IMG/VR virus record: IMGVR_UViG_3300033141_003435
Location: 1 to 58,261 of that record
Length of the DNA stretch: 58,261 nt
Reading direction: 5' to 3' (one strand)
Source of the DNA: a virus
Positions 5,003 through 27,129 of this stretch are shown here, in pieces. The notes below the pieces were generated by a model, which saw only the letters and a program-made list of their open reading frames with translations, ran no database searches and was not told the origin of the DNA. How positions within the stretch are numbered: the first letter of the stretch is position 1; each line of letters starts with the position of its first letter. Both the position numbers and the translations under genes were made by a program.

Positions 5003-5914
5003 TCAGTCGTTGAACACCACACCTCGCCTCGCCCAGAACTTCGTAACGTAGTCTTCAAGCTCGCGATAGGCAAGCGCAGAAACAGCATCGACATAAACAG
5101 GATCGCGCGGATCAAAAGAAATCCCTTCAAGACCGATCTGCTTTGGATGTCTGTAAGCTACAACACCCTCGCTCGCATTCTCCCAGTGTATCCACTTCGT
5201 CTTTGGGTCAAAATACGTTGTTAATGCCCACCGAGTAAATGCCGACCAAGTTGTTGAATCCGCCGAGTAAAGCGGACAACCGAAAAGAAGGGAGCGCCGA
5301 AGTCCTGCGAAGAAGTGATATTTCTTCCCACGTTTCACTCCGTCCTCGACCATTTTACGCAGAAACTCAACAGTCCGTTGAGAATTGATCGACACTCCAG
5401 CAAAACCCTCTGAGAGAGCGATCCAATCGTACTCCTCGATCAGCTCCAAGTACGCTTCCTTCCCGATTGTTGGACGCCAAACAGGAATGATTCGCGCTCC
5501 GGTGTCTTCGAAACGTCTGCGATACTCCTTCACCTTCTCGTACCCGACAAAGTGATCAACATCCATCTCAACAGCGCAGTCGATGATCCCTGCCTGTGCC
5601 CCCGCTTTCAGGAGCACGCAGTACTTCGATACAAGCTCCTCTAGCTCGTGCTGATCAAAAGCATACTTCCCTCTACGACGGAGAATGTCGGTAACGAAGT
5701 AGCGATTGTTCAAAACCGCTACACCCGAATCAATCATCAACATCTCTCCGTTGCCCTTCACTCGCGTCAAGCCCTTCAGCACCTCCATCATTCCCCTCTT
5801 CGTAAAGGGAAACTCCCACAGATTGCTGAAGGCGTAGAGGCGATTCTTTGCGTGTGCGGCATCAAGAGATTTCGGCTGATCGTCCCAGTCAGCAACACAC
5901 AGAAAGATTCTCAT
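5003..5914 (-). CDS. dpdA: DpdA-like tRNA-guanine-transglycosylase family protein (DNA 7-deazaguanine insertion)
   Basis: 303 residues, ATG start. The TIM-barrel pattern of phage DpdA/TGT proteins is visible: MLMIDSGVAV (Asp62), AVEMDVDHFVGY (Asp118 and Asp120) and GARIIPVWRP, then DWIALSEGFAGVS. DpdA enzymes exchange guanine in DNA for a 7-deazaguanine base. The gene closes the row of preQ0-synthesis genes, which strongly supports this assignment over a tRNA enzyme. The classical TGT zinc site is not evident, as is usual for DpdA. The subfamily cannot be assigned without alignment. Confidence 0.75.
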   Translation of the reverse strand: MRIFLCVADWDDQPKSLDAAHAKNRLYAFSNLWEFPFTKRGMMEVLKGLTRVKGNGEMLMIDSGVAVLNNRYFVTDILRRRGKYAFDQHELEELVSKYCVLLKAGAQAGIIDCAVEMDVDHFVGYEKVKEYRRRFEDTGARIIPVWRPTIGKEAYLELIEEYDWIALSEGFAGVSINSQRTVEFLRKMVEDGVKRGKKYHFFAGLRRSLLFGCPLYSADSTTWSAFTRWALTTYFDPKTKWIHWENASEGVVAYRHPKQIGLEGISFDPRDPVYVDAVSALAYRELEDYVTKFWARRGVVFND

Positions 5915-5924
5915 CAGTCATCCT

Positions 5925-6614
5925 TTACTCGTTGATCCATTTTTTCGCTCCTTCTATGATGGCTTTTGCTCTCTCACCTGTAATCTCACCTCTCTCTACC
6001 TTGTCAACGTATCGTGCGACATGCGTTGCGTTCTGAAATTGAGGAACGCCTTGCACGCCACACCACTTCAAAGCTACCCACCAACGGAAGCACGCCGCGC
6101 ACTTCATGCAGCGCCCACTTCTTGAAGAGTAGCATGAGAGCGTTTGCAGAAGTAGTCTATCTGCCTTCTTTCCAAGCTCCCGCTTGAACCATCTTACCGC
6201 ATCGAATTTGCTCCAACCCTGCTCGGCGAAGGGGGCCGCTACTCTAACAAAACGCCCGGCATAACGGGAAATGAAAGAAGTCATATCAGCGTGAGCGACC
6301 CTCGTATTGTCGTTCACACGATCATCAGACACTCCTCCAAGATACACAATGTCAGCATAGCGGCTGGCCCCCATCGCCAACAGCACGTTCCGAAACGGAA
6401 TGTGAGCGTCTGGTAACTCCCAATCTGTAAGCGTGTAGCTAAAGTCAACCTCTGTATTTTTGATAAGCTTCGACACTACTTCCAGCTCTTTGTGCGCGTA
6501 ACGATGTCCCAAGTTAAAATAGAGGGTACGTGGCTTCTTGAGATAGAAATACAGTATGAAGCTGTCCAATCCGCCAGAAAACAACAAAATCTCCGACTTT
6601 TTGCCTCCGACCAT
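5925..6614 (-). CDS. queC: QueC-like 7-cyano-7-deazaguanine synthase
   Basis: About 229 residues. ATG 6614 is chosen because GGAGG lies 4 bases before it, whereas the GTG at 6632 has no ribosome site. The N-terminus has the PP-loop LLFSGGLDSF for ATP binding. A zinc-type cluster C-x8-C-x2-C-x2-C is present near residue 170, as in QueC. QueC converts 7-carboxy-7-deazaguanine to preQ0 with ATP and ammonia. A second QueC domain sits in the next gene upstream (Gat-QueC), so the two probably carry out successive steps. It follows a 180-base structured leader. Confidence 0.75.
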   Translation of the reverse strand: MVGGKKSEILLFSGGLDSFILYFYLKKPRTLYFNLGHRYAHKELEVVSKLIKNTEVDFSYTLTDWELPDAHIPFRNVLLAMGASRYADIVYLGGVSDDRVNDNTRVAHADMTSFISRYAGRFVRVAAPFAEQGWSKFDAVRWFKRELGKKADRLLLQTLSCYSSRSGRCMKCAACFRWWVALKWCGVQGVPQFQNATHVARYVDKVERGEITGERAKAIIEGAKKWINE

Positions 6615-6795
6615 GTTTCCTCCAAAAATCACCTAATGTCCTCGATCCTCCACGAAGTTTTTTATCGCTTAAATATCTAAGTATTAACGCTACCGAAAAC
6701 TTCGTGGAGAACTGTTCTCACAAGTTAGCATTTTATCGTGTAACCTATTTATTTTCAATAGGTTACATAGCCTCCCTCTCGCAAATCGTTTATTT
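6615..6795 (-). promoter_or_regulatory. structured leader between Gat-QueC and QueC genes
   Basis: This gap holds no gene. It contains an 11-bp hairpin at 6739-6767 (TGTAACCTATT with a 7-base loop) and a 14-bp stem formed by 6648-6661 and 6696-6709 around a 34-base loop. A GAGAAC-T-GTTCTC palindrome lies at 6707-6719. Neither stem is followed by a T-run on the minus strand, so they are not ordinary terminators. The element ends about 35 bases before the queC start and may be a cis-acting RNA controlling queC. It does not match the preQ1-I consensus closely. Confidence 0.4.
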
Positions 6796-8280
6796 TCAAT
6801 CATTTACAAGCCTCTTGAGAATCTCTTGCACCGAGTGTCTGGGCGGACGCATCTTAGATTTCATCCAAGGAGCCACATAGAGCTTCTTGTAGTCTGACGC
6901 GTAACGCGTCGCGTCCGTAACTCCTGCTTTTTCAAACGCCATTCGTCGAAGAGTGCAAGCTCCACAGACTCCACAAGCCTTTCCATCCTTCGGCGCGTTG
7001 TCACAAGAGTAAGTGATGTTGTACGGAACTTCAAGGTAGCTTCCGAGCTGTATGATCTCTGTTTTCATCAATCGTTCGAGGGGCATAACGAGTTTCGGTC
7101 GCATCAGCGTTCCGTAGTCAGAAAGCTCATTGAACTTTTGGAAGAACAGAATGGAGTTGTCTGGATAGCTTCCCTCCTCTTCCAACGTCCAGCCTGCCGT
7201 AATGTACTTCGCTCCCTTCGCTTCAGCGACCGCCATCAGAGAAGCTATCATCACGAGGTTGCGAGCAGGAGTCCAGCAGATCGTAGATTTCAAGTTTTGT
7301 CTCTTAGCTTTGGGCACAGGAAGACTCTTCTCAGTCAACACGCTGTGTCCGAGAGCACCGAGCCACTTCATGTCGAGAAACATGAACTCAACTCCAAGAT
7401 CAACGGCAATGCGCTTAACAGCCCGCCTCTCTCCCTCTTCACTCTTCTGCCCGTGATCAATGTGGCAAAGCACAACGTCTTTATGCCACAACTTCTTACA
7501 TACGTACGCCGCTGTCGTTGAATCTATCCCACCGCTTGAACAAACGAGCACTTTGTCTCCTTGAGCAGGAAGTTGAGAGATGAGCTTTGTCTGTAGCTCC
7601 TGAAATTTGAACTCCCTTTTGTCTACGTCGTACGTGCCACAGGTGTAGGACTCAACCTGTCTCCAGAACGGAAAGGCATGATCTCCGAAGATTGTGCGAA
7701 CAAATCTTTCTTCGCTGAGGATGAAAAACAGTTCGTCTGTTTCGCCGACAACCATAGTTTTGAAGTCTTTGATGAAGTGCAGACACCGCCTCTTAATGTC
7801 GTACAACAAGTAGGCGAAGCCCCCACTACACTCCTTAAAAGCCTTTAACAAGTCTCCAAACTTCTGATAGAGAAGAAACGGGACTTCGCTGTCTATCTCT
7901 GTTATCGGCTCAAGCTTGTGCTGTTTGATCAGCTCTTCGTCATTCGCAACTACACCGTTATGAGAAATGACGTGATAGTCACGAATAATGGGCTGCACAG
8001 ACCTCTCATCAAAGCTTCCCACTTCAGTCAGAGGTTGCGCTCGACAGTTCCAGATAAGAAAGTCTTCGGGCTCAATGCCATTGACAAACTGTCTCCACTC
8101 CGGTGAGGCGAGCACTTTACTCGCGGTTGTGGGACGCTTTAGCGTTTTGATACGACCCGACACCTTGACATCAACAATTCCGAAGGCGTCCTGTCCACGC
8201 TTTTCTGTCTCCAAAACCATGTGCTCAAGGAGACGCCCATCTACCTTTCTGTAAAAGACTGCTCCTCCGATTCCACACAT
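6796..8280 (-). CDS. gat-queC: Gat-QueC: glutamine amidotransferase fused to QueC-like domain
   Basis: 494 residues. The protein starts Met-Cys-Gly-Ile-Gly, so Cys2 becomes the class II glutaminase nucleophile once Met is removed. Residues 1-235 form the Ntn glutaminase domain (SHNGVVAND near 107). Residues 240-494 form a QueC-like domain with PP-loop SSGGIDST at 248 and zinc ligands C426, C436, C439 and C442. Gat-QueC proteins make the formamidino group of archaeosine from preQ0 in some archaea, and Escherichia phage 9g, whose DNA carries dG+, encodes one. Together with a separate QueC this points to an archaeosine-type base in the phage DNA. Confidence 0.82.
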   Translation of the reverse strand: MCGIGGAVFYRKVDGRLLEHMVLETEKRGQDAFGIVDVKVSGRIKTLKRPTTASKVLASPEWRQFVNGIEPEDFLIWNCRAQPLTEVGSFDERSVQPIIRDYHVISHNGVVANDEELIKQHKLEPITEIDSEVPFLLYQKFGDLLKAFKECSGGFAYLLYDIKRRCLHFIKDFKTMVVGETDELFFILSEERFVRTIFGDHAFPFWRQVESYTCGTYDVDKREFKFQELQTKLISQLPAQGDKVLVCSSGGIDSTTAAYVCKKLWHKDVVLCHIDHGQKSEEGERRAVKRIAVDLGVEFMFLDMKWLGALGHSVLTEKSLPVPKAKRQNLKSTICWTPARNLVMIASLMAVAEAKGAKYITAGWTLEEEGSYPDNSILFFQKFNELSDYGTLMRPKLVMPLERLMKTEIIQLGSYLEVPYNITYSCDNAPKDGKACGVCGACTLRRMAFEKAGVTDATRYASDYKKLYVAPWMKSKMRPPRHSVQEILKRLVND

Positions 8281-8282
8281 TT

Positions 8283-9104
8283 CTACTCCCCCACTCGTAG
8301 GTTGACGTACAACTCTACGATCAGTTTAACGACACTGACGACCCACTCCTTTTCAAATGTCTTCTTGGGACAAGTGCTCATTGTGCAAGGGTCGTCAGTG
8401 AGTTTTACGAAAGCCGGACTGTTGGGACGCTTGAAGATTTGTATCGGACTCAGCTTACAAACAAGAGGTGCATCCAGGCACAGCTTCGGGATGTCCTTCT
8501 TTTTGAGAATCGGACATTTGTACAGCACGTCTCCGTTTTCGACTTTGAATTCGTTCTTGGTAAACTCAGGCTTCAACTGGCGGCGCTTACGATACTCAAA
8601 CTCCCCCGGATAAAGAAAGATGAACGGGCGGGAGTTGCAAACACCACATTTCTTGCATTCGCCGATATCCTCAAACTTCCCGCCCATCCAGTAGAGTTCG
8701 TCGTAAATCTTGTCAGTCAGTCTGTCTTTCTCCCTGACTCCACGAATCTTCTCTTGCACCCGCCACTCGACAATCTCTCCAAACTCTCCCAGCGCTTCGC
8801 GCAAATCTGAAGCTAGGCGCTGTACGTCAGTGTCGAATTTGCACGTGTAAACGTCGAAAGAGATGTATCCGTGCTCTGGATAAGTGTGAAAGGAGCAATG
8901 CGAATCGGCAATCAGAAAGACTCCCGAAGCTCCCTGAGGATAGTAGTCCCACTGGGTGTAGTTAAGAATCATCTGTTGGTGCTTCATCAAGAGCTTGGCG
9001 ATGATGTTCTTCAACTGCCCTGTGTTCGCGACAATGCTCGCAGCACGCATGTCCATCCAGCAGTCTACCATCAAATGCTTTGATTTTGGATCGTAAATTT
9101 CCAT
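8283..9104 (-). CDS. S-adenosylmethionine decarboxylase-like (SpeD family) protein with Cys-rich C-terminal extension
   Basis: About 273 residues. ATG 9104 is preferred over GTG 9110 because of the GAGGGG ribosome site. The first 95 residues carry ADSHCSFHTYPEHGY and DVYTC. Ser68, His73 and Cys88 have exactly the spacing of the pyruvoyl serine, processing His and proton-donor Cys of bacterial AdoMetDC, with Asp replacing the usual Glu before Ser68. Residues 120-273 are an added Cys-rich domain (CKKCGVC, then further Cys). Phage SpeD homologues are known to have changed substrate. Within this cluster it may decarboxylate AdoMet or another substrate used in base tailoring. Confidence 0.75.
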   Translation of the reverse strand: MEIYDPKSKHLMVDCWMDMRAASIVANTGQLKNIIAKLLMKHQQMILNYTQWDYYPQGASGVFLIADSHCSFHTYPEHGYISFDVYTCKFDTDVQRLASDLREALGEFGEIVEWRVQEKIRGVREKDRLTDKIYDELYWMGGKFEDIGECKKCGVCNSRPFIFLYPGEFEYRKRRQLKPEFTKNEFKVENGDVLYKCPILKKKDIPKLCLDAPLVCKLSPIQIFKRPNSPAFVKLTDDPCTMSTCPKKTFEKEWVVSVVKLIVELYVNLRVGE

Positions 9105-9106
9105 CG

Positions 9107-9664
9107 TCACCCCTCGAAATACTTGAAGATGAAAAGCTCCTCAGACGGGTCTTCGTATGTGAGTTTGAAGCCGTCTTCCGCCGCAATGCTGCTAAGAACT
9201 TCTCTCCAAGTGTTGTACGACCACCACGTTATGTGAGACGGATCGTTGTAGAACCACTTGTGCTCGATAGAGCAAAATCCGACGACAACACACATCGACG
9301 AAACTCGAGTGAACTCTTTCATCGTTTTGTAGATGTCCAAAGTCGTGAGATGCTCAAGAAGATCAAACGAGATTGTGCACTCAAACGCGTCATCTCCTCC
9401 GACCATCTCGGAAAGAATGCGCGCATCTCCGAGCTTGATCAACTCTGGGAGCGGACAGCGCTTGACAATCTCTTCGTTGTACTCGACACCTAAGACTGTC
9501 TTCCCCAAACTATGGAGAAGGTGTAGCCCTTCAATGCTTTCGCACGGACAAAAAAGAAAGCTCTTCATGTAGTCAAGCTTGCTTTGATGCTCCTCCCAAA
9601 ACGCTATCTCCGAGCGTCGCAACCCCCCGTATCTTTCATAGTACTTCTTGTCAAAACCAGACAT
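9107..9664 (-). CDS. class I SAM-dependent methyltransferase-like protein
   Basis: 185 residues, ATG behind AGGAGGAGAAG. A Rossmann-type layout is visible: a FLFCPCESIEGLHLLHSLG segment in the place of motif I, VLGVEYNEEIV (acidic residue after strand 2), LGDARIL, and CTISFDLLEHLT, typical of type-11/12 methyltransferases. The motif I glycines are poorly kept, so it may act on an unusual ligand or be inactive. It lies between the SpeD-like and radical SAM genes and probably modifies the deazaguanine base or a side-chain precursor. Confidence 0.55.
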   Translation of the reverse strand: MSGFDKKYYERYGGLRRSEIAFWEEHQSKLDYMKSFLFCPCESIEGLHLLHSLGKTVLGVEYNEEIVKRCPLPELIKLGDARILSEMVGGDDAFECTISFDLLEHLTTLDIYKTMKEFTRVSSMCVVVGFCSIEHKWFYNDPSHITWWSYNTWREVLSSIAAEDGFKLTYEDPSEELFIFKYFEG

Positions 9665-9673
9665 CTTCTCCTC

Positions 9674-10687
9674 CTAATCTGAGCGGTGCTGAAAGTAGTC
9701 TTGCACTTTCTTGAGTGCCCGATCGACACCCAAATGTTTGTACTTCTTGTAGACCCACTCCGTCTCGACCTGACAGTTCCAATAGCATCCGTGACACTGC
9801 GCCTTAAAATCGTGCTTCCAGTCTAGGTGTATCCTTCCGAACGGTATCTCTCTGACACTGGCCCACTCGAGAACGTTGTATCGACGAATCTTGTTGCCCC
9901 GAAGGTGCAAACAAGGTCGCAGTGTTCCATCCGCGTCAATCACCAAGTTCGTCATTCCCAAACATCTGTAACGATACTCGTCTGGACAGACGTTGGATGC
10001 AAACTTGAGCAGATACTCTGAGGTGTTGTGGATGAGGTATCCCTCCCTCTTCATTCTCACGAGCCTCTTCATAACAGCGTTCAACGCGTGCCAGTCAGAC
10101 ATACGAAACGCAAACTTGCGATCGTAGAAGCCGAAGTCATAGTCGTGTGACGGATAAGCGATGTAGGGCGTTATTTCCGACCAACAACCCTCCTTTGATA
10201 AGAGCTTGACAAGCATGGTCGCGCCCTTGTAGTTCTCACGATCGAGAGTAAGCGTTGCGTGTAAGTCTTCCACACCCAAACGCTTAGCGACTTCGATCAC
10301 TCTTAGAGCGTTGCTCGTCTTTCGCGCTCTATCTTGACACCCCATGGGATCGGCTGAGAGACTAAGATTCTTCAACCCGCAAGCCTTAAGCTCGCGGATA
10401 TACTGTTCGTCAAGCAGCATCCCGTTTGTCACAATAGCATAGCTTAGGTCACCTAAATGCTTGACGAAACGCTTCAATCGCTTCTTCCCCCAAACAGTTA
10501 CGTCCCCTCCCAGTATGACGATAAACGAGTCGCTGAAGTGTCTCTTCAAAACAGCGATGACCCGATAGACATCCTCCTCGGTAAGCTCATCAAACTGATT
10601 GTCTCGAATACGACAGTACTCGCACCTCAGATTGCACCTCCGCGTCGGTAACCAGGTCACAACGGGTGGTTTTGCAAAGACACTCAT
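9674..10687 (-). CDS. radical SAM enzyme with SPASM-like C-terminus
   Basis: 337 residues. ATG 10687 overlaps the TGA of the preceding gene (ATGA) and has GGAGGAG upstream. The N-terminus has CNLRCEYC, the CxxxCxxC site of the 4Fe-4S cluster that cleaves AdoMet. GGDVTVWG, TNGML and LSLSADP follow the usual radical SAM barrel order. The C-terminal third carries CPDEYRYRC, LRPCLHLRG and CHGCYWNC, which look like auxiliary cluster ligands of a SPASM domain. It is distinct from the QueE in this cluster, so it likely performs an additional step on the base. Confidence 0.75.
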   Translation of the reverse strand: MSVFAKPPVVTWLPTRRCNLRCEYCRIRDNQFDELTEEDVYRVIAVLKRHFSDSFIVILGGDVTVWGKKRLKRFVKHLGDLSYAIVTNGMLLDEQYIRELKACGLKNLSLSADPMGCQDRARKTSNALRVIEVAKRLGVEDLHATLTLDRENYKGATMLVKLLSKEGCWSEITPYIAYPSHDYDFGFYDRKFAFRMSDWHALNAVMKRLVRMKREGYLIHNTSEYLLKFASNVCPDEYRYRCLGMTNLVIDADGTLRPCLHLRGNKIRRYNVLEWASVREIPFGRIHLDWKHDFKAQCHGCYWNCQVETEWVYKKYKHLGVDRALKKVQDYFQHRSD

Positions 10688-11391
10688 TGCTCTCCTCCAA
10701 TCCAAAAGAAGCAATCGTAGGTGTCTCTCACAATTATCTCCTTTACACTTCGTCCAAGCTTCTTGCCCAGCACTTCAATGGAGTCTTCGTGAAACATCTG
10801 CACATGTTCGCGGTTGTAAGACATCTCAAGCACATCCCACCTGAAGTCGGGAAACATCGGCACAATCCCGAAGAAGTCTCCATCAAGCGCCTTCCCCAAA
10901 TGCTCAACAAATGCACTCAGATCAATGATGTGCTCAAGCGTATGTGAACAGATAATCACGTCAAATCTTTCCCCAAACTCAGCCCACGCAAAAAGATTCT
11001 CTGAAACATCGATGAGATCGATGCGATGGCTCCGCGCCTCCAGCATATCGTCGTCTGTATAGAAATCGGCGGCGACTAAGTCCCAATTGCGCCGTCTTTC
11101 TCGTATCTGACGAAGCGTATGCTGGGACTTGCCCGCACCGATGTCAAGCACCGCAAACTTGGGACGACGTATGACGTTAAGCCGCTTCAACACCATCTCT
11201 GTGTTCAATCGATTTAGCCATTTGTACACTTCCAACCGCTCTTCTATCCACTTCGCGTCTTCTCCAAGTCTGTAGTCAACTCTCTCGGGGTTGACGTTCC
11301 ATACAAGTTCGCAAGAGAAACACTTACGAAACGCCCCTTCGCGCAAACTCCCCCACGAGTCATCTCCACACAACGGGCAAACGTTTCTCAA
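10684..11391 (-). CDS. zinc-ribbon methyltransferase (type 11)
   Basis: 235 residues with a TTG start preceded by CGGAG; the start overlaps the stop of the HAD gene. Residues 1-30 form a two-pair zinc ribbon (CPLCGDD and CFSCELV). A class I methyltransferase fold follows: FAVLDIGAGKSQHT (motif I), LVAADFY, and FDVIICSHTLEHI (motif IV and post). This architecture is common in methyltransferases acting on sugars or small molecules. It is the second methyltransferase of the cluster. Confidence 0.65.
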   Translation of the reverse strand: MRNVCPLCGDDSWGSLREGAFRKCFSCELVWNVNPERVDYRLGEDAKWIEERLEVYKWLNRLNTEMVLKRLNVIRRPKFAVLDIGAGKSQHTLRQIRERRRNWDLVAADFYTDDDMLEARSHRIDLIDVSENLFAWAEFGERFDVIICSHTLEHIIDLSAFVEHLGKALDGDFFGIVPMFPDFRWDVLEMSYNREHVQMFHEDSIEVLGKKLGRSVKEIIVRDTYDCFFWIGGEQ

Positions 11392-11990
11392 TGCTCCGAT
11401 TTTCCTTTCATTTCGACCATAGGAAGCACAAAAGTTTTGGGGCGTTCAAACGCCCCCGCCTTAGCCAGCGTGTCAATGATGATCTTGATGTAAGTTATCG
11501 CTTCCTCCTTCAAATCTTTGTCTCGAAGAAACTCGCCTTGCGCTGAGACTTCGAGTCCGTGTTTCGAGATTCGCACAACATAGCGATCAGGGAGCTTCAG
11601 TACCAACTTGGAATCCTGGAGGCGCTCATTGTGGAGATACGCAAAAATCCACATCTCTTCGCTTGACTTTCGCTCGTGAATAAACAGCCCCCTCCTCTGA
11701 GGGAAGTTGCACGTCGCGTGATCGTCGACGTAAAGGTCAGCTTGAGGTTTGTCAAACTTCAGCTCGTGGTACTTCACACCCCAACTCGCCAGCCACTCCT
11801 TTGTCACCTTCACTACGCCCTTGTCAGAGCTTCGGCGAGATGTAAAGAGTATGATTTTGTGCCCCGCATTATAGAGCGCATTAACAAGAGCGATGTTCTC
11901 TTTGTTTGGAACTCGAGAACGAAACGCTTCGACAGAATGGGTCGGAGGAGCATCACACAGTATTCCGTCAATGTCGACCACGTAGACCAT
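11388..11990 (-). CDS. HAD-like phosphatase
   Basis: About 200 residues. ATG 11990 shares a base with the upstream TGA and follows GGAGGAAGG. The start VVDIDGILCD is HAD motif I (DxD), IILFTSRRS is motif II, and LYVDDHATC is motif IV. The remaining 80 residues form a small alpha/beta extension of unknown role. Members of this kind remove phosphate from nucleotides or small metabolites. Beside a phosphoribosyltransferase-FolE fusion it may dephosphorylate a pterin or nucleotide intermediate; that is inference. Confidence 0.6.
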   Translation of the reverse strand: MVYVVDIDGILCDAPPTHSVEAFRSRVPNKENIALVNALYNAGHKIILFTSRRSSDKGVVKVTKEWLASWGVKYHELKFDKPQADLYVDDHATCNFPQRRGLFIHERKSSEEMWIFAYLHNERLQDSKLVLKLPDRYVVRISKHGLEVSAQGEFLRDKDLKEEAITYIKIIIDTLAKAGAFERPKTFVLPMVEMKGKSEH

Positions 11991-12940
11991 CACCTTCCTC
12001 CGATCAAGCGAAGAAACTCCTCTTTGACTTTGTCTTCGAGGAAGTTCCCCTGCATCGCTGAAGTTGTCATGACAGAAGCTTGCTTCTCAACACCTCTAGC
12101 CATCATACAAAGATGCTGAGCTTCGATGACAACTCCGACTCCCATGGGGCGCAACGTTTCTGTAATAGCACTTGCTATCTGTTGTGTAAGTCGCTCCTGT
12201 ATCTGCAGGCGTCTCGCATAGCACTCAACAAGTCTTATCAACTTCGAAATTCCGACAACTTTGTCTTTGGGAAGATAGCCGATATGCACTTTTCCAAAGA
12301 AGGGCATCATGTGATGCTCACACGTTGAGAAGAACTCGATGTTCTTCAGCACTATCATCTGATCATAGTGAAGCGTTTCAGAGAACTGAGCTTGAAGTTT
12401 GACGATGGCAGAGATGTTGTCGCGATACCCACCGAAGAGCTTGCCCCAGCTCTTAACGACTCTTGTCGGCGTATCCTTCAACCCCTCTCTGTTTGGGTCA
12501 TCTCCGATGTACTCGATGATTCGTCGTACGCTATCTTCGATTTCTCTCGGAGACTCCCAGGGAAACACAATCCACTTGCCGCGCGCCACCGTTCTGAGGA
12601 AGATGTCGGGCTTGATCGCCGCTCCTTCCTTCACGTACAACGCCGCCGTCAAAAAGCCCTTCTCAACATACGGACGAATCGTCTCCCCACTATCAACAAT
12701 GTCATCCACAATCACAGTGCGAGAAACATCGGGGGACGAATCAAGCGCCTCTAAAGTTCTCACGATTTCTCGAGCAACGAACCACCCTCCGACAGGAATT
12801 CCGAACACGGTTCGCAGCCCTCTTCGTGCGACTTCAATTGTCAGCTCGTTCCTTAGCTCATCGCAAAGCATTCCCAGCCCTTTCCACGAAAGAGCTATCT
12901 TATCTGCAGTATCTTGTGAAGTTGAAGACTGAGCCTCCAT
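11990..12940 (-). CDS. folE: phosphoribosyltransferase-GTP cyclohydrolase I (FolE) fusion
   Basis: 316 residues, ATG behind GGAGGGAAGG. Residues 1-125 are a type I phosphoribosyltransferase domain with the PRPP loop RTVIVDDIVDSGETI at 75-88. Residues 130-316 are GTP cyclohydrolase I: TPTRVVKSW, STCEHHMMPFFGKVHIGY (Cys207, His209/210) and HLCMMARGV (Cys278) give the zinc site and active centre. FolE opens GTP to dihydroneopterin triphosphate, the first step of the queuosine/preQ0 path. The fused phosphoribosyltransferase could supply guanine nucleotide by salvage or recapture released guanine. The fusion is unusual. Confidence 0.85.
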   Translation of the reverse strand: MEAQSSTSQDTADKIALSWKGLGMLCDELRNELTIEVARRGLRTVFGIPVGGWFVAREIVRTLEALDSSPDVSRTVIVDDIVDSGETIRPYVEKGFLTAALYVKEGAAIKPDIFLRTVARGKWIVFPWESPREIEDSVRRIIEYIGDDPNREGLKDTPTRVVKSWGKLFGGYRDNISAIVKLQAQFSETLHYDQMIVLKNIEFFSTCEHHMMPFFGKVHIGYLPKDKVVGISKLIRLVECYARRLQIQERLTQQIASAITETLRPMGVGVVIEAQHLCMMARGVEKQASVMTTSAMQGNFLEDKVKEEFLRLIGGR

Positions 12941-13506
12941 CCTTCCCTCCGTTTCACAATTTCAACGCACCTTCTAATCTCGTCTGGGTCATTGTCTTTC
13001 GGCTGAAGGAAAAGATGAAGGCCCTTGTCGGTTGACGCCCTTTCGAACTCCTCCAGCTCGCTATCTGTGTGGTTGTCAAACACCACTTTGACCTCTTTCG
13101 CCAATTGAACGTTGTAAGCCGACCCTCTTTTCGGACTGACCGTAACCCAATCGACATAGCACTCCAACCATCGAGGGGAGTTTGTTCCATTAGTTTCGAC
13201 CGCTATCCACCGCACGCCCCTCTCACGTACGCCGCAAACGAACTGCATCATAAGCTCATCGTCTTGTATCGTCGGCTCCCCTCCGGTCAACACTATGCGC
13301 GGAACACAGTACGACGCGACTTTAGTTATCAACGCACCGACTGTGTATTTCTTTCCTGACTTCCAGGCGTATTTCGTGTCACACCAGGAGCAACGAAGAT
13401 TACATCCAGCGAACCTCACAAACACAACAGGCAACCCCGTCCAAGCTCCCTCTCCTTGTATGGAGTAGAAAACCTCATTTACCTGCAGTTTCTTTGGCTT
13501 TGACAC
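12895..13506 (-). CDS. queE: QueE, 7-carboxy-7-deazaguanine synthase
   Basis: 203 residues. GTG 13506 is chosen because GAGGAG lies 5 bases before it and the product then begins near the conserved YSIQGEGAWTG. CNLRCSWCDTKYAW is the radical SAM CxxxCxxC motif. VLTGGEPTIQ, AVETNGT and VTVSPKRG complete the QueE order. It converts 6-carboxytetrahydropterin to 7-carboxy-7-deazaguanine. The 3' end overlaps the next gene by 46 bases. Confidence 0.9.
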   Translation of the reverse strand: MSKPKKLQVNEVFYSIQGEGAWTGLPVVFVRFAGCNLRCSWCDTKYAWKSGKKYTVGALITKVASYCVPRIVLTGGEPTIQDDELMMQFVCGVRERGVRWIAVETNGTNSPRWLECYVDWVTVSPKRGSAYNVQLAKEVKVVFDNHTDSELEEFERASTDKGLHLFLQPKDNDPDEIRRCVEIVKRREGWRLSLQLHKILQIR

Positions 13507-13909
13507 GTCGTCTCCTCGGCCAGACAATCTTCTGCTCGTTGTACGTACAACTGGCGTTGCTGCTCTCCCACACAGTGACACTCCAAAGCTTGCAAATTTT
13601 CTTTGCCTCAAAAGGAGCTAGAAGCTTTTGCAGCTCCTCGTAAATCCACTTTGAAAGATTCTCTGCAGTCGGATTGAGTCCCTCGGGGAGAATACGATTC
13701 AGATATCCGTGGTCAAGTTGTGACGTTACCTTCGTGATGTAGCGTTTGATGTCTCTGAAGTCGAGTACCATGCCGATCTCTCGCGTTTTGTTGGCGACAA
13801 TAGTCACAGCCACCTTCCATGTATGCCCGTGCAACGCCGCACAAGCTCCATGATAGCCCTCAAGGTGGTGGGCCGCCGCAAAGTCGCTTTCCAAAGTCAA
13901 TGCAAACAT
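13475..13909 (-). CDS. queD: QueD, 6-carboxytetrahydropterin synthase
   Basis: 144 residues starting at ATG 13909 (MFALTLESDF); the longer upstream frame runs through another gene and is ignored. DFAAAHHLEGYHGACAALHGH supplies the Cys and His ligands of the PTPS/QueD zinc site. LDFRDIKRYI, LDHGYLN, NPTAENLSKWI and VWESSNASCTY follow in family order. It makes 6-carboxytetrahydropterin from dihydroneopterin triphosphate, the product of the nearby FolE. It is translated before QueE with a 32-base overlap. Confidence 0.9.
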   Translation of the reverse strand: MFALTLESDFAAAHHLEGYHGACAALHGHTWKVAVTIVANKTREIGMVLDFRDIKRYITKVTSQLDHGYLNRILPEGLNPTAENLSKWIYEELQKLLAPFEAKKICKLWSVTVWESSNASCTYNEQKIVWPRRRRVKAKETAGK

Positions 13910-13919
13910 CTTGCCCTCC

Positions 13920-14132
13920 CTACAGCTCTCGCATCTCTCTGTCCTTACGCTTGTTGACACTGAGTTGCAGAACGCCAGCCACCATCCAAAAGATGAAGGT
14001 GGCTCCAATGCCCGCCAGCGGACACCACCAACGAAGCCCCAAGAGCCACCACAACACCTTGATCGTCGCCAGCAAGCCGAACAGTGTACCGACAAGCGCA
14101 ACCAAAGCAGGAGTTGATTCACCGACTCTCAT
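13920..14132 (-). CDS. small two-helix membrane protein
   Basis: 70 residues; its ATG overlaps the stop of the ParB-like gene by ATGA. Two hydrophobic segments (about residues 9-31 and 36-57, rich in Trp, Leu and Ala) separated by a short GLRWW turn suggest a hairpin in the membrane, followed by a charged tail (NKRKDREMREL). It could be a holin-like or accessory membrane protein, but nothing more specific can be said. Confidence 0.5.
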   Translation of the reverse strand: MRVGESTPALVALVGTLFGLLATIKVLWWLLGLRWWCPLAGIGATFIFWMVAGVLQLSVNKRKDREMREL

Positions 14133-15225: not shown

Positions 15226-17328
15226 CTAAAGAAAGTCTGGCTCGTCGTCGGCAAGAAAGTCGTCTTCGTCGTCCAGCTCTCCCGACATTATCGCCTTCAT
15301 AATCTGCATCTCTTCCGTCTCAATTCGCTTGGGACGACTCCGCTTCGTTCCTCCCAACAACCACTCCTTCGTTTCACGCTCAAGCTTCTCCTCCAACGTC
15401 TCGGTGTCTGCGAACTCTCCTAACTGAGGGAGGTCTGCGACCCCAAGATCGAACTGCTTAGTGGCAGCGAAAACGGCGCAAGCAAGAGCGTCGCTCACAT
15501 CCTTCGACCCTCCAGGAGGGTGATCAATCTTCCCTGTCCTCAAATCTCTCTGGAGCGTCCTAAGCTCCTCCATCAAAGGTTTATAAGGATAACATTTCAG
15601 ACGCCCCTCGTAAATACACTCTTTGAGCACCAGGTAAGGGTCCGGCGAACGATCAGCCGACTGGTGTCCGACTACCTCCTGTCCGAAACGCTTACGGAGA
15701 AGTTGTTGCGACTCCCTCGAACCGTACAAGTCGTATGTGATAGAAGAAAAGCGTACTCCGCAAACGTCTCTAAACCGATGGAGTATCTCCCTGATGTACT
15801 CAAACTCGATCTCACCCTCAGAAGGAGGGTTGATTCGCAGCACCAGGTCGACAAACACGATAGGGACAACCTCCATCGTCGCTTCGTAGTCGTCTTCCTC
15901 GGAGCTGGAGACGAACTCTGACTCGTGTCTATGGTGTCCACGTCTGTGATATTTGCGAGGCACCTCTTTGACCTGCCCAACGTGCACGATCGCCACTCCC
16001 GTTGAGTCTCCTGTTGACGAAAGGTCAATGTGTGCACACCTCAAAGCCCCTGGGTGAAGCTTCATTCTCGGAATGTCGAAAGATTTCCCTTCTGGAGGCT
16101 TCTTGATGAGACGATCAAGAATGACAGCATCCAACAGTCTGTCGTACGGAATGCCCTCGGGCCAATTGTCAGAAAGAGGAGAAGGAATTTGAGACGTGAA
16201 CATCGCCACGATTCTTGAGTCGTCGGGGATGAAACGATTCAACGATCTAACGTTCTTCCCCAAAATGTCTCGAATTGCCCCCTCCATATCAACCTCGAAG
16301 TCGCGCTTGTACTCAATCGGGATGGCACAGACCTCTCCACGCTTCTTGTAATTCTCCACCTCTTCAGAGGGAATTTCTTTCGGAGGCGTATGCTGATCAC
16401 CTATAAAAAGGTAGAATTTCCGACCGCTGTATCGTGACTCAGGTTTCGTCTCCCACTCAGAATGCTCGAAAACGACAGTCTCCCTTCCGTCGGCATGTTT
16501 GGAGAGTCGCTCCAGAAAGTCGTCAGGATGTTTGGCTGAAGAATTGAGAATCAACATCCCTGGGACGCGTCCCAAGTTCTGATAACGGGACTTCATCCTC
16601 CTCCAGATGCTGTCATGCAGCTTCTTTGCCTGATCCCACTCACGTTCGGCGGGGTTTGTGATCTTCGAACTCCCCTTGACAACCTGAAAGAAGTTTGCCT
16701 CCTCAATAACGCCTCCGAAGAGGTTCTCCCCAAGAGGAGCCAGTTCGGAAGAAGACCCCGGCACAATGCTGACCATCTTCTGCGGAAAGTCGATGATGGA
16801 CTGGATGTACTTGTTCCTCGGAAAGTCCTTCTGGAAATAAGGACTCTCGTCGATCATATCTTTAATCAATTTGAAGAGGACACGTTGGGCGTGCTGGGCT
16901 GAAACAGAGAGATTCATGAAACTGATCTGAGTCATCGGGGCCAGCCCGAAGTAGGCTTGGGGAGACTTCAAGCAGCTCAGCTCGTAAGCCATGTAAGAAA
17001 TCAACAACGCAGAAAGCCACGTCTTGCCCCAACCGATAGAGCCTTTAAGGATGACCCTCATCGGACGGGGATCGACCAGTACTACACGGTAGAAGTTGTC
17101 TTTGACCCCAGGATAGGTGCGCTGCCCTACAGCTCCAAAATAGTAGGGGTCGTTCAGCCACCGTACAGGATCGACAGGTTCACGCTCATACTTATTCTCG
17201 AACCACTCTTCGTACAACTCTCGGATGCTGAGGCCGCACTTAGCTGCTACTTCATGCAAATAGCGCTCCGCCTCTATCCCGAACTCTTCCATCGAAGGCG
17301 GCGACGATAGGCGCTTCTCACGACCCAC
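15226..17328 (-). CDS. terL: terminase large subunit
   Basis: 700 residues from GTG 17328, chosen because GGAGGT lies about 8 bases upstream. The ATPase domain has Walker A GSIGWGKTWL near residues 96-105 and Walker B FGGVIEEANFF. The nuclease domain has CAHIDLSSTGDSTG, then ITYDLYGS and a DVSDALACAV motif supplying the last acidic residue. The C-terminus is a highly acidic tail. The enzyme drives DNA into the portal and cuts the concatemer. Its start is overlapped by 11 bases by an open frame leaving the repeat-rich region. Confidence 0.92.
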   Translation of the reverse strand: MGREKRLSSPPSMEEFGIEAERYLHEVAAKCGLSIRELYEEWFENKYEREPVDPVRWLNDPYYFGAVGQRTYPGVKDNFYRVVLVDPRPMRVILKGSIGWGKTWLSALLISYMAYELSCLKSPQAYFGLAPMTQISFMNLSVSAQHAQRVLFKLIKDMIDESPYFQKDFPRNKYIQSIIDFPQKMVSIVPGSSSELAPLGENLFGGVIEEANFFQVVKGSSKITNPAEREWDQAKKLHDSIWRRMKSRYQNLGRVPGMLILNSSAKHPDDFLERLSKHADGRETVVFEHSEWETKPESRYSGRKFYLFIGDQHTPPKEIPSEEVENYKKRGEVCAIPIEYKRDFEVDMEGAIRDILGKNVRSLNRFIPDDSRIVAMFTSQIPSPLSDNWPEGIPYDRLLDAVILDRLIKKPPEGKSFDIPRMKLHPGALRCAHIDLSSTGDSTGVAIVHVGQVKEVPRKYHRRGHHRHESEFVSSSEEDDYEATMEVVPIVFVDLVLRINPPSEGEIEFEYIREILHRFRDVCGVRFSSITYDLYGSRESQQLLRKRFGQEVVGHQSADRSPDPYLVLKECIYEGRLKCYPYKPLMEELRTLQRDLRTGKIDHPPGGSKDVSDALACAVFAATKQFDLGVADLPQLGEFADTETLEEKLERETKEWLLGGTKRSRPKRIETEEMQIMKAIMSGELDDEDDFLADDEPDFL

Positions 17329-17866
17329 TGTACACACCTCCCGATAAGACGCCCAACCCTCCCATGAAAGAAGGACAACTTCCACTTCCCTTCCCTACAG
17401 TAACAACAACAGCAGTAGGAAGACCGTTCTTTGCCCTCTGTAGGGCTTCATGAACAGCCTCTGCTACTGAAGAACAAATGTTTGAAATCTGAAATATTTG
17501 TGTAGTCTTCCCAGTAGAAGCAGCACGGACTCCGTACAACGAAGCAGTCAGAAAAAGCAGACACGCACGAAAAAATCGACACGCGCGAAAAAATCGACAC
17601 GACGTGATGAGGGAATAACTAGACGCCCTTAACTCGTTACGCAGATGTTTTTTATGCGAATCGACACCATAACGCTCATGAGAACTCTGCTCTAGTATGA
17701 CAGAGTTGCCCTTCGCTACATGTGCTCTCACTACTCTCATGTGAGTAGACGTTAAAAGCCACCCAAGAACACCCTCGTACAACGTCAAGCATACTGTCAG
17801 AAGTCTCTCAGAAGACTCCCGTACGTAATGCCGGAGACACCTCATCTGCCTTCCCAATAGAGTGTC

Positions 17867-17896
17867 CATACCTATATCCTTACCTATATCCATACT
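17867..17896. repeat. 12-bp tandem repeat
   Basis: CCATACCTATATCC is followed by TTACCTATATCC and a further ATAC: an imperfect CCTATATCC(A/T)TA tandem array of about 2.5 copies. It is a minor block of the large repeat region. Confidence 0.6.
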
Positions 17897-18266
17897 ACAG
17901 CCCACCGTACAACGCAGTAAGTGCCTCCTTCCGACAATACGCTCTATAAGACTATGGTCGTTCTCGACGCTCGCGTGTAGCGTGCTCGCTCGTTTCAGCG
18001 TGCTCATCTGGCAGGCCCGACGAAAACGAAGACGTGATATACGGCGTACAACGTAACTCGCGTATATACGTCTAATATATACACGTGTTATTCTCGCTAC
18101 TTCCAACACCAGAAACAACGCAAGAGTCTTCACGAGAGTCTTCACAAAGTCGTGCAGTGAGCACACACGTCCCTGCGCACGTGTATAGCGAGAACTTGTG
18201 CCCTCACTCCTCTCGCGAGTAACGAGAGCGCTCGCTTCTCTCGAGAGCATAGCGAGTTCTCGTGTA

Positions 18267-18380
18267 TAGCGAGAACATGGGAGTATAGCGAGGTCGTACG
18301 GGTTTAGCGAGAACTTGTGAGTGTAGCGAGAACTTGTGTGTGTAGCGAGAACATGCGAGAAAAGCGAGAACTTGTGAGCA
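18267..18380 (+). repeat. array of six 19-bp-spaced TAGCGAG words
   Basis: TAGCGAG-type words begin at 18267, 18286, 18305, 18324, 18343 and 18362 (the last as AAGCGAG), each exactly 19 bases after the previous one. The typical unit is TAGCGAGAACTTGTGNGTG. Regular spacing near two helical turns is typical of arrays bound by a DNA-binding protein, but could also come from slippage. Confidence 0.75.
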
Positions 18381-18556
18381 TTGTGACAACGTGCGTTGTC
18401 TCTACATACGTGTGTAGCGAGAACATGCGAGAAAAGCGAGAACTTGTGAGCATTGTGACAACGCACGTTGTCTCTACATACGTGTGTAGCGAGAACATGC
18501 GAGAAAAGCGAGAACTTGTGAGCATTGTGACAACGCACGTTGTCACAATGCTCACA
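18341..18556 (+). repeat. three tandem 72-bp repeats
   Basis: Units begin at 18341, 18413 and 18485. Each contains TGTAGCGAGAACATGCGAG, AAAGCGAGAACTTGTGAGC and ATTGTGACAACG followed by a CG-rich turn and CGTTGTC. Copies 1 and 2 differ at two positions; copy 3 diverges in its last 20 bases to form a perfect palindrome. The period is a multiple of three, which helps keep the overlapping long frame open. Confidence 0.85.
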
Positions 18557-18558
18557 AG
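18515..18558. repeat. 44-bp perfect palindrome (21-bp arms)
   Basis: The arm CTTGTGAGCATTGTGACAAC plus G is followed by CA and then its exact reverse complement. It overlaps the end of the third 72-bp repeat. As DNA it could extrude a cruciform; as RNA it would form a 21-bp hairpin. There is no T-run, so it is not a standard terminator. Confidence 0.85.
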
Positions 18559-19075
18559 TAGCGAGATCAAGCGATTTTAGCGAGTCCATACGACTCTCAC
18601 TACTCTCACGAGTAACGAGCGCACTCGCATCTCTCACGTGTGTCATAGCGAGAACTTGTGCCCTCGCTACACTCACGTGTATAGCGTGCTCGAGAGCATA
18701 GCGAGAGCACTCACTCTCACTCCACCCTTGTGTGACATAGCGATCACACAAGTCCTCGCTCCTCTCGTGTGTAGCGAGAACATGAGAGTTTAGCGAGGTC
18801 ATGCGTGTTTGGTGACAACGCTCGGTGTCACTCCTCTCGTACGTAGCGAGAGCAAGCGAGTTCGGTGTCTCCTGAAGTAGTGGCGACACCGAACTCGTGA
18901 GCGGAGCGAGAACATGCGTGTACAGCGAAAGCCCATGTAGAATACGGCCCCAAATCGCTGCTTCATACGCGCTCACTCCACTCACGAGTGCCAAAGCGAG
19001 ATCACGTGGCGCTCGCAACCCTCGTGAGTAGCGTGCGCTGGCGCTTCTCTCGCTAAAATCGCTTGATCTTGCTAC
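18559..19075. repeat. inverted copies of a 24-base word about 480 bp apart
   Basis: GCGAGATCAAGCGATTTTAG lies near 18561 and its reverse complement (CTAAAATCGCTTGATCTTGC) lies near 19050. Most other words in this region share one orientation, so an inverted copy of this length is notable. Confidence 0.65.
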
Positions 19076-19381
19076 ATGTGCGTGTAGCGCGTGCTCTCGT
19101 GTATGATGAGCGCACACGGCTCGCACAAGTGACATAGCGACAACGAGCGTTGCTTCTGAGTGGAGCGCTCTCGCGTGTAGCGAGAGCACGCGATACTTGT
19201 GCGTGTTGCGAGCACATGTGCGTGTAGCGAGCACTCTTGCTGCTCTTGTGTGACATAGCGAGATCGCTCGGTGCACACACGCGTCGTATAGCGAGATCAC
19301 TCGTTGCTCTCGACACTTGTGTGTCAAAGCGTCAACATGCGACTGAGAGCGTCTCCACAAGTTGCTCTCAGGCCCGATCTT

Positions 19382-19655
19382 AGCGAGTCCATTCATCATG
19401 TCCGACTCACGTGTGTCATTGCGTGCACACATGTCACGCTTGTGTGTCAAAGCGTCAACGTGCGTTTGTAGCGACAACGAGCGCTGCCTCGTGAGTCGTG
19501 TAGCGAGGGCACTCGCATCTCTCACGTGTCGTATAGCGAGATCACTCGTTGCTCTCAGCACTTGTGAGTGATTGCGACAACGCACGTTGCCCACAAGCGC
19601 CATCTTAGCGAGTCCATTCATCATTCTCGGCTCACGTGTGTCATTGCGTGCTCGC
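19382..19655 (+). repeat. two direct copies of a ~45-bp unit
   Basis: TTAGCGAGTCCATTCATCAT occurs near 19381 and again near 19607, each followed after a few differing bases by CTCACGTGTGTCATTGCGTG. The copies are about 227 bp apart. Confidence 0.75.
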
Positions 19656-23763: not shown

Positions 23764-24664
23764 TCTCCTCCTCCTCCTTCAAACCAGACAAATCACACGA
23801 TTTAGACCATAACTCTTTGTGCAACTTAGTCATACGCTTCTTCTCACTCGAAAGAAGGTAGCCCGTCGAAAAGAGATACTTCTGCTGAAGGGCAATAAGC
23901 TCCATAAACATCTCCTCAAGTTGTGACAGCTCACTCCCCTTCGAAAAGCCACCCAAGACATCTCTCCAAACAGCTAGACGAAATGAGTCCCAATGTCGAC
24001 AAACATCAAGTGAAGAAGGCAGCCTGAAGGTCGAATACGGCGCAACGAATCCGCCAAGATACATCGGTTCAAGTCGTTTGAATCCATGCGGATTCGTTAT
24101 CGGACTCAAAAGATGCTTCAGAAACAACGACCAGTTCTTCCACATCCCGGCCAACGCCTTCGCTTTGAGCCAAGTGCGCAGAGGCTCTTCATCCCCTTCA
24201 AGCACAGCTATTTGGACCGCCTTAGCCATCCCAGTCATAATCTCTCCAACACGAAACAGCTCGACCAACAACGGTCGTCCTTTCGCTTCACCTACCATCC
24301 ACAACACAGCCCAGAGCTTGCTATTCCCAACAAATTTAGTAAACTGGGCCTTGTCATCGACAACAACTCCCAACCGCCAACTCACCGGAATAAGCTCCCC
24401 AGAGGAAGTTCGCAGTGGACGCTTGTGCTGTGACAGTTGATCGAAGAGCAGCTCACAAACCATCCTTGGATCACCAAGACTCGCAAGCCACATATAGAAT
24501 TCTGCTCCTATCTGCCTTCCATCTCGAATTCCGAACTGTCGTTTGACTCCCTCTACTATACAGCTCTCATCTATCTCCTGCAAAGCCACTGCGTCCTCAC
24601 CTTCAGCTTCGTACATCAACCTCCAATGTCGTTCACTGTTCGCCAAGACTTTCACCTCTCTCAT
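23744..24664 (-). CDS. hypothetical protein downstream of the ubiquitin-like cassette
   Basis: About 306 residues from ATG 24664; GTG 24718 would extend it by 18 residues and increase the overlap with the JAB gene to 86 bases. Neither start has a good ribosome site. The protein is Trp- and Leu-rich and mostly helical (KLWAVLWMVGEAKGRPLLVEL, WKNWSLFLKHLLSP). No catalytic motif is seen. It shares the operon with the E1/E2/JAB genes and could be a target adaptor or effector. Confidence 0.5.
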   Translation of the reverse strand: MREVKVLANSERHWRLMYEAEGEDAVALQEIDESCIVEGVKRQFGIRDGRQIGAEFYMWLASLGDPRMVCELLFDQLSQHKRPLRTSSGELIPVSWRLGVVVDDKAQFTKFVGNSKLWAVLWMVGEAKGRPLLVELFRVGEIMTGMAKAVQIAVLEGDEEPLRTWLKAKALAGMWKNWSLFLKHLLSPITNPHGFKRLEPMYLGGFVAPYSTFRLPSSLDVCRHWDSFRLAVWRDVLGGFSKGSELSQLEEMFMELIALQQKYLFSTGYLLSSEKKRMTKLHKELWSKSCDLSGLKEEEESGEKTN

Positions 24665-25409
24665 TGAAGAGCGCGCAAGCAGGAGAAACAACTGAGAGCT
24701 TTTGGTTGGTGTACTCACATGTCAACACGCCGTCCCTTCCACTCACAGGAGTTGCATGACTGCACTCTCGACAAAACTTCCCTGGAGTCACCGTCCCCAA
24801 CTTTAGACTCTTCGCAACAGGAGCAACCAACTCTCTTGAGTCGAACTCAACCTTTGACACCTTTTCGTCGATCTCCTGTTTGAGAGCTGTTCTTTGTGAA
24901 GAAGACAACGTTGTACTGATGACCACCTTGATAGGAAGTGTATACGCTCCAAACTCAGCTTGTCCATCAATGCGAGCAAGGGCTTCTCCCCCTGTATTGA
25001 GAACCAACGACACAAACCACTCTCCGCACTTTCGCAAGTCTGCACAAGTCTTCTCGTCAATATCGCTCCAGAAGACCTCTCCATCTCCATGCGTATGCCA
25101 CCAAAACTTGAGCAACAACCCCTCATCATGACTTTTCTCATTCATCAAAGTCGCCTGGAGAGCAGCAACCTGCTCCGACTCAAGCTCCACATCAGCCAAC
25201 CCAGCTTTTTGCTCCAGCAGATAGAGCCTCTCAACACAAAGTCTTCCCTCTTCTGCTATCCTCAACTCACCCAAGCCGCTCACTTCATATGGAGCAACGT
25301 CCCTTGCGATAAAGAGCAGCTCATCCCACTGCTCTCTCGAAAGAACCAACCTCAATTTAGGCCCTTCGTAAGCGGCTGACACCTTCCCTCTTCCGTCTAA
25401 CTCTTCCAT
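24633..25409 (-). CDS. JAB/JAMM-domain metallopeptidase with zinc-binding tail (JAB-A)
   Basis: 258 residues, ATG behind GAGGAGGAACA. Glu42, then HTHGDGEVFWSDID at 105-118, gives the full JAMM zinc motif (E, HxHx7SxxD) of deubiquitinase-like peptidases. Residues 210-250 hold a Cys4 module (CRECSH, CEYT and PAC). Such enzymes cut ubiquitin-like proteins after the C-terminal Gly, maturing the precursor or removing the tag. It is the second of two JAB genes in the cassette. All metal ligands are present, so it should be active. Confidence 0.8.
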   Translation of the reverse strand: MEELDGRGKVSAAYEGPKLRLVLSREQWDELLFIARDVAPYEVSGLGELRIAEEGRLCVERLYLLEQKAGLADVELESEQVAALQATLMNEKSHDEGLLLKFWWHTHGDGEVFWSDIDEKTCADLRKCGEWFVSLVLNTGGEALARIDGQAEFGAYTLPIKVVISTTLSSSQRTALKQEIDEKVSKVEFDSRELVAPVAKSLKLGTVTPGKFCRECSHATPVSGRDGVLTCEYTNQKLSVVSPACALFNERGESLGEQ

Positions 25410-25422
25410 TGTTCCTCCTCAG

Positions 25423-26466: not shown

Positions 26467-26469
26467 TCA

Positions 26470-27129
26470 TCAACCTCCTGTCACAGACTCTATCGTTGGA
26501 GTATGCATTGACGCTACAAATGTCATCTGCTCTCCCGACTTTAAGTATCCTCGCACAGCCCTCACCACCAAAGCCGCTACCAAAAAAGCCACGTCGATGA
26601 TTGCTCTTGCTGTACAAGGCAACTCTGCTGCATCCTTATCTTCAAACAAAGTCGTCTCATATGCTGTGATTCCATCTACATCACAAGGGTTGAAAGCGAT
26701 GACCTTTACGTTCTCACCCCCTATTCGACCGTCGACAAAAAGACGAACAGCTGGATTCAACCGCGCCTTCTCCCAAATCTTCTTTCTCACTTCCATCTTG
26801 TCCACGGCAGCGATGACTACCCCTTCGAGTTCCGACCCCTCCCAGTACTTCTCAATCGGACTTATCTTCGCCTCTCCCATCCCTAAGAGAATGTCGGCAA
26901 GGGCAACCGCCTTATTGCTTCCAATGTCTTCAATCCTGAAGAGCTGATTTGGGGTGTTGTGCTCTTCAACTTTGTCTCCGTCCCAAAGCTCCAATCGCTC
27001 CACCCCGAGTTTCACCAAGCCCAAAGTCGTCCAGCTTCCAATTCCGCCGCAACCAATCACCGTCACCTTCACTCCCTTTAGCTTGGCGGGCTCTAAGAAA
27101 TCCATCTGACGCCAATATCTCGTCTCCAT
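26470..27129 (-). CDS. E1/ThiF-like ubiquitin-activating adenylyltransferase
   Basis: 219 residues; ATG 27129 shares its A with the stop of the E2-like gene. VTVIGCGGIGSWTTLGL (nucleotide loop at 26-31), LWDGDKVEEHN (Asp50/52), NQLFR and IGSNKA, then VVIAAVDKME (Asp110), are the ordered ATP-binding motifs of ThiF/MoeB/E1 enzymes. Cys172 in LPCTAR is placed like the E1 thioester cysteine. The enzyme would adenylate the C-terminus of the beta-grasp protein encoded two genes upstream. It is short, lacking extra E1 domains, like ThiF in bacterial Bil and PRTRC cassettes. Confidence 0.82.
   Translation of the reverse strand: METRYWRQMDFLEPAKLKGVKVTVIGCGGIGSWTTLGLVKLGVERLELWDGDKVEEHNTPNQLFRIEDIGSNKAVALADILLGMGEAKISPIEKYWEGSELEGVVIAAVDKMEVRKKIWEKARLNPAVRLFVDGRIGGENVKVIAFNPCDVDGITAYETTLFEDKDAAELPCTARAIIDVAFLVAALVVRAVRGYLKSGEQMTFVASMHTPTIESVTGG

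Follow-up and report, generated by a model that had tools for sequence, protein, structure and literature searches.

A recurrent phosphoribosyltransferase-GTP cyclohydrolase I fusion in phage 7-deazaguanine DNA-modification clusters, with a plausible role in guanine recycling

Modification of phage DNA with 7-deazaguanines shields it from restriction enzymes, at a cost of about one GTP per modified base. A viral record of 58,261 nucleotides (IMGVR_UViG_3300033141_003435), called the window here, encodes a phosphoribosyltransferase (PRT) joined to GTP cyclohydrolase I (FolE), raising the question of what a PRT would do in such a pathway. The gene is a 316-residue open reading frame on the minus strand (11990..12940), supported by Pfam, PHROG, and NCBIfam matches. 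It starts with an ATG at 12940, with GGAGGGAAGG just upstream and GGAGG preceding the ATG. The PRT domain covers residues ~12-130, followed by a complete GTP cyclohydrolase I at residues 132-314. An AlphaFold2 model of the whole chain showed a pLDDT of 88.5 and a pTM of 0.63, indicating that the relative placement of the two domains is unreliable. The same gene was found on a second contig (L001), differing by one substitution, and the architecture recurred in ~100 other loci; thus, the join is not an assembly error. The preliminary description had placed an N-terminal PRPP loop and a complete FolE zinc center in a single chain, and the open reading frame, Pfam, motifs, and models confirmed this.

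The C-terminal half (residues 132-314; 11999..12547, minus strand) is identified by homology as FolE, predicted to convert GTP to dihydroneopterin triphosphate for QueD, QueE, and QueC. Pfam GTP_cyclohydroI (PF01227) spanned residues 134-313 with 237 bits against a cut-off of 27 (E 9e-71), and TIGR00063 matched with 232 bits against a cut-off of 181.6. The model matched Thermus thermophilus FolE (1wm9) with Z 24.2, rmsd 1.5, and 51% identity. The zinc/catalytic set is complete, comprising C207-E-H-H210 (CEHH, residues 207-210; 12311..12322, minus strand) and H276-x-C278, such that C207, H209, H210, H276, and C278 are all present. CEHH and the third zinc ligand C278 (12107-12109, minus strand) were invariant in alignment A1. 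We take these residues to be equivalent to C110, H113, and C181 of E. coli FolE.

The N-terminal half (12551..12907, minus strand) was modeled alone with a pLDDT of 91.4, and the model matched E. coli XGPRT (4jls) with Z 17.2 and rmsd 1.9 over 117 aligned residues. It carries the PRPP-binding motif of type I PRTs, DD-x4-G-x-T, as VIVDDIVDSGET (residues 76-87; 12680..12715, minus strand), in which D79, D80, G85, and T87 were invariant in alignment A1. Pfam Pribosyltran (PF00156) scored below its gathering threshold (20.2 bits versus 26.3, E 4e-4) and detected the PRPP loop alone, which explains why depositors overlooked the domain; it matched 7 of 21 fused relatives at E 1e-3. The NCBIfam xanthine PRT model matched the half with E 1e-6, while the NF006613 equivalog cut-off was not reached (28.5 bits versus 138), and phmmer matched archaeal purine PRTs with E 1e-5. 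Furthermore, a profile built from 46 fused-type PRT domains retrieved from the PDB a Pyrococcus purine PRT with E 6e-21 and the E. coli and Yersinia XGPRTs with E ~1e-14 to 1e-16. Together, NCBIfam, phmmer, and the two structure models leave no doubt about the predicted PRT fold, and the modeled half clearly belongs with the xanthine-guanine (Gpt) PRTs.

Next, the active site was surveyed in 68 fused PRTs aligned to E. coli Gpt as the reference row. The GG and W columns, which had partly served to select the fused PRTs, were given no weight in the counts. In E. coli XGPRT, D92 contacts guanine N7, K115 contacts O6, and W134 provides stacking. These three 6-oxopurine contacts are present in the window as D83 (within the PRPP loop), K105, and W123, the last lying in the purine-stacking motif KWIVFPWE (residues 122-129; 12554..12577, minus strand), which was recognized by alignment and profile search and abuts FolE directly. 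Among the 68 fused PRTs, the PRPP Asp pair (D88/D89 in E. coli numbering) was found in all, D92 was kept in 64, and K115 in 57. OPRT/PyrR-type structures scored below Gpt-type ones against the PRT model. An identity as pyrimidine, adenine, or orotate PRT was thus rejected, since the Asp at the D92 position and the Trp of KWIVFPWE are 6-oxopurine features. The substrate class is therefore predicted, with strong support from D83, K105, and W123, to be 6-oxopurine, and the pyrimidine substrate that the preliminary description had named as the opposing case found no support.

The same survey showed what the domain has lost. In every one of the 68 fused PRTs, 20-38 residues (median 26) separate the pyrophosphate-loop GG from the PRPP Asp, versus 48 in E. 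coli Gpt; ~22 residues are missing at the site of the canonical flexible catalytic loop. The separate PRTs encoded in DpdA loci are mostly short in this interval as well, which indicates that the loop was lost throughout this PRT group. The PF00156 profile covers the region of the missing loop. In Gpt, the flexible loop is believed to seal the active site over the transition state. In addition, the pyrophosphate loop of the window, GIPVGG (residues 47-52; 12785..12802, minus strand), carries Val50 where relatives in alignment A1 carry Arg or Lys; the position was Arg in 63, Lys in 4, and Val in only one of the 68, namely the window. A sequencing error is unlikely to explain V50, as L001 carries it as well. 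Fold and residues thus identify the half as a predicted minimal Gpt-type 6-oxopurine PRT. It is under purifying selection (dN/dS about 0.02-0.5 where dS was estimable) and evolves faster than the FolE half (about 0.01-0.2). Two pairs of loci showed nearly identical PRT halves with diverged FolE halves (L016/L021, 98% versus 81% identity; L007/L008, 97% versus 68%), indicating that the halves have been exchanged independently between phages at the junction.

The window contains a full 7-deazaguanine DNA-modification set (DpdA, FolE, QueD, QueE, and QueC/GAT-QueC) within 5003-14122. All genes of the cluster lie on the minus strand, in the order QueD (13475..14122; Pfam PTPS, E 1e-36), QueE (12895..13611; phrog_2076, E 5e-38), PRT-FolE, five further genes, an archaeosine-type glutamine amidotransferase-QueC fusion (GAT-QueC, 6796..8280; Pfam QueC, E 2e-49, plus GATase_6/7), a second, stand-alone QueC (5925..6632; Pfam QueC, E 9e-13), and a divergent DpdA-type DNA guanine transglycosylase (5003..5914; phrog_887, E 2e-14). 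The true starts of QueD and QueE are probably internal to the frames given. The phage therefore probably replaces guanines of its own DNA by a chemically altered base, with the fused FolE as the first enzyme of the pathway. The combination of FolE, QueD, QueE, GAT-QueC, and DpdA leads to archaeosine-type DNA in a published scheme (PMC6884629), which predicts the same for this cluster. The five genes between PRT-FolE and GAT-QueC (8283-11993) encode a HAD-type protein, a methyltransferase, a second radical-SAM protein, a second methyltransferase-like protein, and an AdoMet decarboxylase, and may carry out additional modification of the base, for instance using decarboxylated SAM. The radical-SAM and HAD-type genes recur in two other loci (L097/L098), which also have a related QueC.

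Elsewhere in the window, several other features were observed. A helicase frame (47169-49541) has an apparent intein inside its DEAD/DECHH motif, beginning with CLDGDTQIATP and ending with IVVHN followed by C. Two JAB-like (MPN) frames adjoin a ThiF/E1-like protein (24633-27132), possibly forming a ubiquitin-like processing set in a phage, and a family A DNA polymerase (41343-43790) carries a uracil-DNA glycosylase-superfamily domain at its N-terminus. A repetitive 768-residue frame (17318-19624; HVLATH and AHKFSL repeats) is probably not a gene but a stretch of repeats.

The preliminary description had proposed looking for the same architecture in other phages, and it was found in ~33 GenBank records and ~100 IMG/VR loci, representing many unrelated phages. 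By tblastn against GenBank phages, 37 records covered at least 80% of the window protein, 33 in one piece and four, the immuto phages, in two. The PRT domain alone retrieved 33 records, located at FolE wherever annotation exists. The fusion records belong to Queuovirinae and relatives and are mostly named FolE only. In PaMx25, the annotated FolE start lies inside WIVFPWE, so that the PRT is cut off; gp38 of this phage was considered as a separate PRT gene and rejected as a wrong-frame ORF. Genuinely separate PRT genes occurred in the DpdA/Que clusters of eight loci (L024, L025, L037, L038, L062, L070, L157, and L159), in a bacterial locus (L167), and in the immuto phages (L182). The fusion was also found in bacterial metagenome-assembled genomes of Tepidiformaceae (L160) and Planctomycetaceae (L161/L162); a search of L160 and L161 for DpdA returned only the tRNA-type TGT. 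Separately, a 651-residue PRT-FolE frame (L064:7647-9602) has an apparent intein at the FolE active-site Cys, and two further oversized frames (L082, 580 residues; L232, 599 residues) may resemble it.

The association with the pathway was then analyzed in 80 control loci anchored on an unrelated gene, the thymidylate synthase of an immuto phage. PRT was present in 7 of the 8 control loci with at least two of QueD, QueE, FolE, and DpdA, and in none of the remaining 72. Among DpdA-anchored loci, 42 of the 74 that also have FolE contained a PRT. The direction of the association is clear; the percentages are no population estimates, because the control anchor phage itself has a PRT and the DpdA-anchored sample was ranked by likeness to the DpdA of fused systems and is thus enriched for relatives. 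DpdA was found in 21 of 24 contigs with the fused PRT, the other three being contig edges or fragments. Fusion contigs in general nearly always showed DpdA, and the exceptions were again fragments or edges, such as L017, whose close relative L018 possesses it. DpdA did not help to tell fused from plain FolE (21/24 versus 16/19 contigs), since phage FolE mostly occurs in DpdA clusters regardless. The link between PRT-FolE and the DpdA pathway drawn in the preliminary description is accordingly strong and recurrent at the level of gene clusters.

Absences were observed on both sides. No PRT was found by Pfam or PRT-domain tblastn in the DpdA phages 9g, CAjan, Dp-1, the Rosebush type, BcepGomr, and RHEph04; tblastn was used as well because Pfam misses some loop-less PRTs, including that of PaMx25. 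Conversely, profile searches detected no DpdA in three PRT-containing contigs, L153 (170 kb), L156 (166 kb), and MIJ3 (288 kb). Such an absence is weak evidence, as DpdA families are highly divergent, and those of phiST and MaInes were revealed only by a third profile. Four phages initially taken as DpdA-less negatives (phiST, MaInes, BSTP8, and CP220) were dropped, since phrog_887 was negative but a profile of immuto-type DpdA-like proteins matched all four. The CP220 match (FN667788, 54675-55436) had E 2e-60; the CP220 group of Campylobacter phages was reported to lack DpdA (PMC6884629).

We propose, at about an even chance, that PRT-FolE is a bifunctional enzyme of 7-deazaguanine DNA modification whose PRT half salvages the guanine released by DpdA as GMP. 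DpdA would insert the deazaguanine base and eject one guanine per exchange; the PRT half would join this guanine with PRPP to form GMP, and host guanylate and nucleoside-diphosphate kinases would return GMP to GTP. Since each modified base costs one GTP and each exchange frees one guanine, the loop would balance 1:1. From TGT chemistry, removal of guanine would also be expected to end its competition with preQ0 at DpdA. With a GC content of 0.49 and ~30% of G replaced, the figure for other phages (PMC6884629), ~8-9 thousand guanines would be released per 58-kb genome copy. Of the guanine recycling put forward in the preliminary description, the purine PRT and the link to FolE, DpdA, and Que genes stood, and the recycling itself is the leading explanation, consistent with fold, residues, and neighbors. 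Any return to FolE would have to pass through two kinase steps, because FolE uses GTP rather than GMP, and direct channeling is excluded. A fixed ratio of salvage to precursor synthesis is the likelier benefit of the fusion. The proposal is qualified by the loss of the loop, which would demand catalysis without it, by V50, by the DpdA phages in which no PRT was found, and by the PRT-containing contigs in which no DpdA was detected. The bacterial genomes L160 and L161 count against it, as does the fact that hosts usually have their own Gpt/Hpt.

An unlikely alternative is that the PRT half acts as a sensor, binding PRPP, GMP/GTP, or ppGpp and tuning FolE to keep deazaguanine synthesis in step with guanine supply while the phage replicates. 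Animal FolE is tuned by GFRP, and the PRT fold has been adopted for regulatory purposes in PurR and PyrR. The loss of the catalytic loop in all 68 fused PRTs, V50 in the window, and the almost linker-free junction with FolE would suit such a role, and related folds retrieved with the PRT model bind regulatory nucleotides (PyrR, Z 11.6; 5vog with ppGpp, Z 13.1). However, the PRPP and 6-oxopurine contacts are all retained, and the halves have been swapped independently. Furthermore, loop-less PRTs encoded apart from FolE cannot tune it in cis, which argues against a general rule. That the loop-less PRT represents a new kind of regulatory module gating FolE is doubtful. It is rather improbable that the PRT performs general 6-oxopurine salvage, raising GTP for FolE from the hypoxanthine, xanthine, and guanine of host nucleic acid breakdown, with the DpdA link being incidental. 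The specificity of the Gpt family spans these three bases, and PRT occurs with FolE or QueE in L153, L156, and MIJ3 and in two bacterial lineages; nevertheless, most PRT-containing contigs have DpdA, and no PRT occurred in the 72 control loci without Que genes. Lastly, that the PRT converts a 7-deazaguanine base (preQ0 or archaeosine base) to a nucleotide for polymerase incorporation is very improbable: a separate full-length PRT lies near ribonucleotide reductase in phiST and MaInes, adjoining FolE in the latter, but both phages do have a DpdA-like protein, DpdA inserts free bases and needs no nucleotide, D92, conserved in 64/68, contacts N7, an atom absent from deazaguanines, which makes preQ0 an unlikely substrate, and no PRT was found in HVTV-1 or in CP220, whose group is reported to be highly modified with dADG (PMC6884629).

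PRT-FolE thus recurs as a so far unannotated part of a known pathway, its PRT is unusual and reduced, and guanine recycling is a plausible interpretation. If true, this recycling would be an additional step in a well-studied pathway, contributed by a recurrent PRT linked to FolE and DpdA. Hutinet et al. 2019 (PMC6884629) measured replacement of ~30% of G in CAjan and Rosebush, and the main text of that paper is silent on salvage of the freed guanine; our literature search found no paper that connects a PRT to FolE or DpdA in the modification of phage DNA. The missing loop is of interest either way, as the domain would be a PRT that works despite lacking the flexible loop or one converted into a FolE regulator. 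The annotation gap is systematic, since ~33 GenBank records contain the PRT domain under mostly FolE names, and in at least one of them (PaMx25) the annotated start falls inside the domain.

Compared with known systems, the PRT half shares with E. coli Gpt/XGPRT (1a95-1a98, 4jls) the fold, the PRPP loop, and the purine-selecting Asp, Lys, and Trp, at 20% identity, but it lacks ~22 residues in the flexible-loop region, has Val for the pyrophosphate-loop Arg, and is fused to FolE. The closest by sequence are archaeal purine PRTs, KWIVFPWE included, from Pyrococcus horikoshii (1vdm; Z 15.6-15.8, 30-31% identity) and S. solfataricus (HGXPRT/GpT-2, 4z1o), which in contrast stand alone and retain the loop. 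The 9g phage has the FolE domain, active by complementation (PMC6884629), in the same context of DpdA, QueD, QueE, and GAT-QueC, and differs from the window in having no PRT anywhere in its genome by Pfam or PRT-domain tblastn. In the Flavobacterium immuto phages, a loop-less PRT of 131 residues lies directly upstream of FolE in the cluster QueD-QueE-PRT-FolE-DpdA-QueF, such that the two are separate genes, not one as in the window. The GTP cyclohydrolase I of PaMx25, NP1, VpKK5, MMDA13, and other phages, deposited as plain FolE, shows the same PRT-FolE architecture as the window at 38-43% identity, making the system accessible in cultured Pseudomonas and Vibrio phages.
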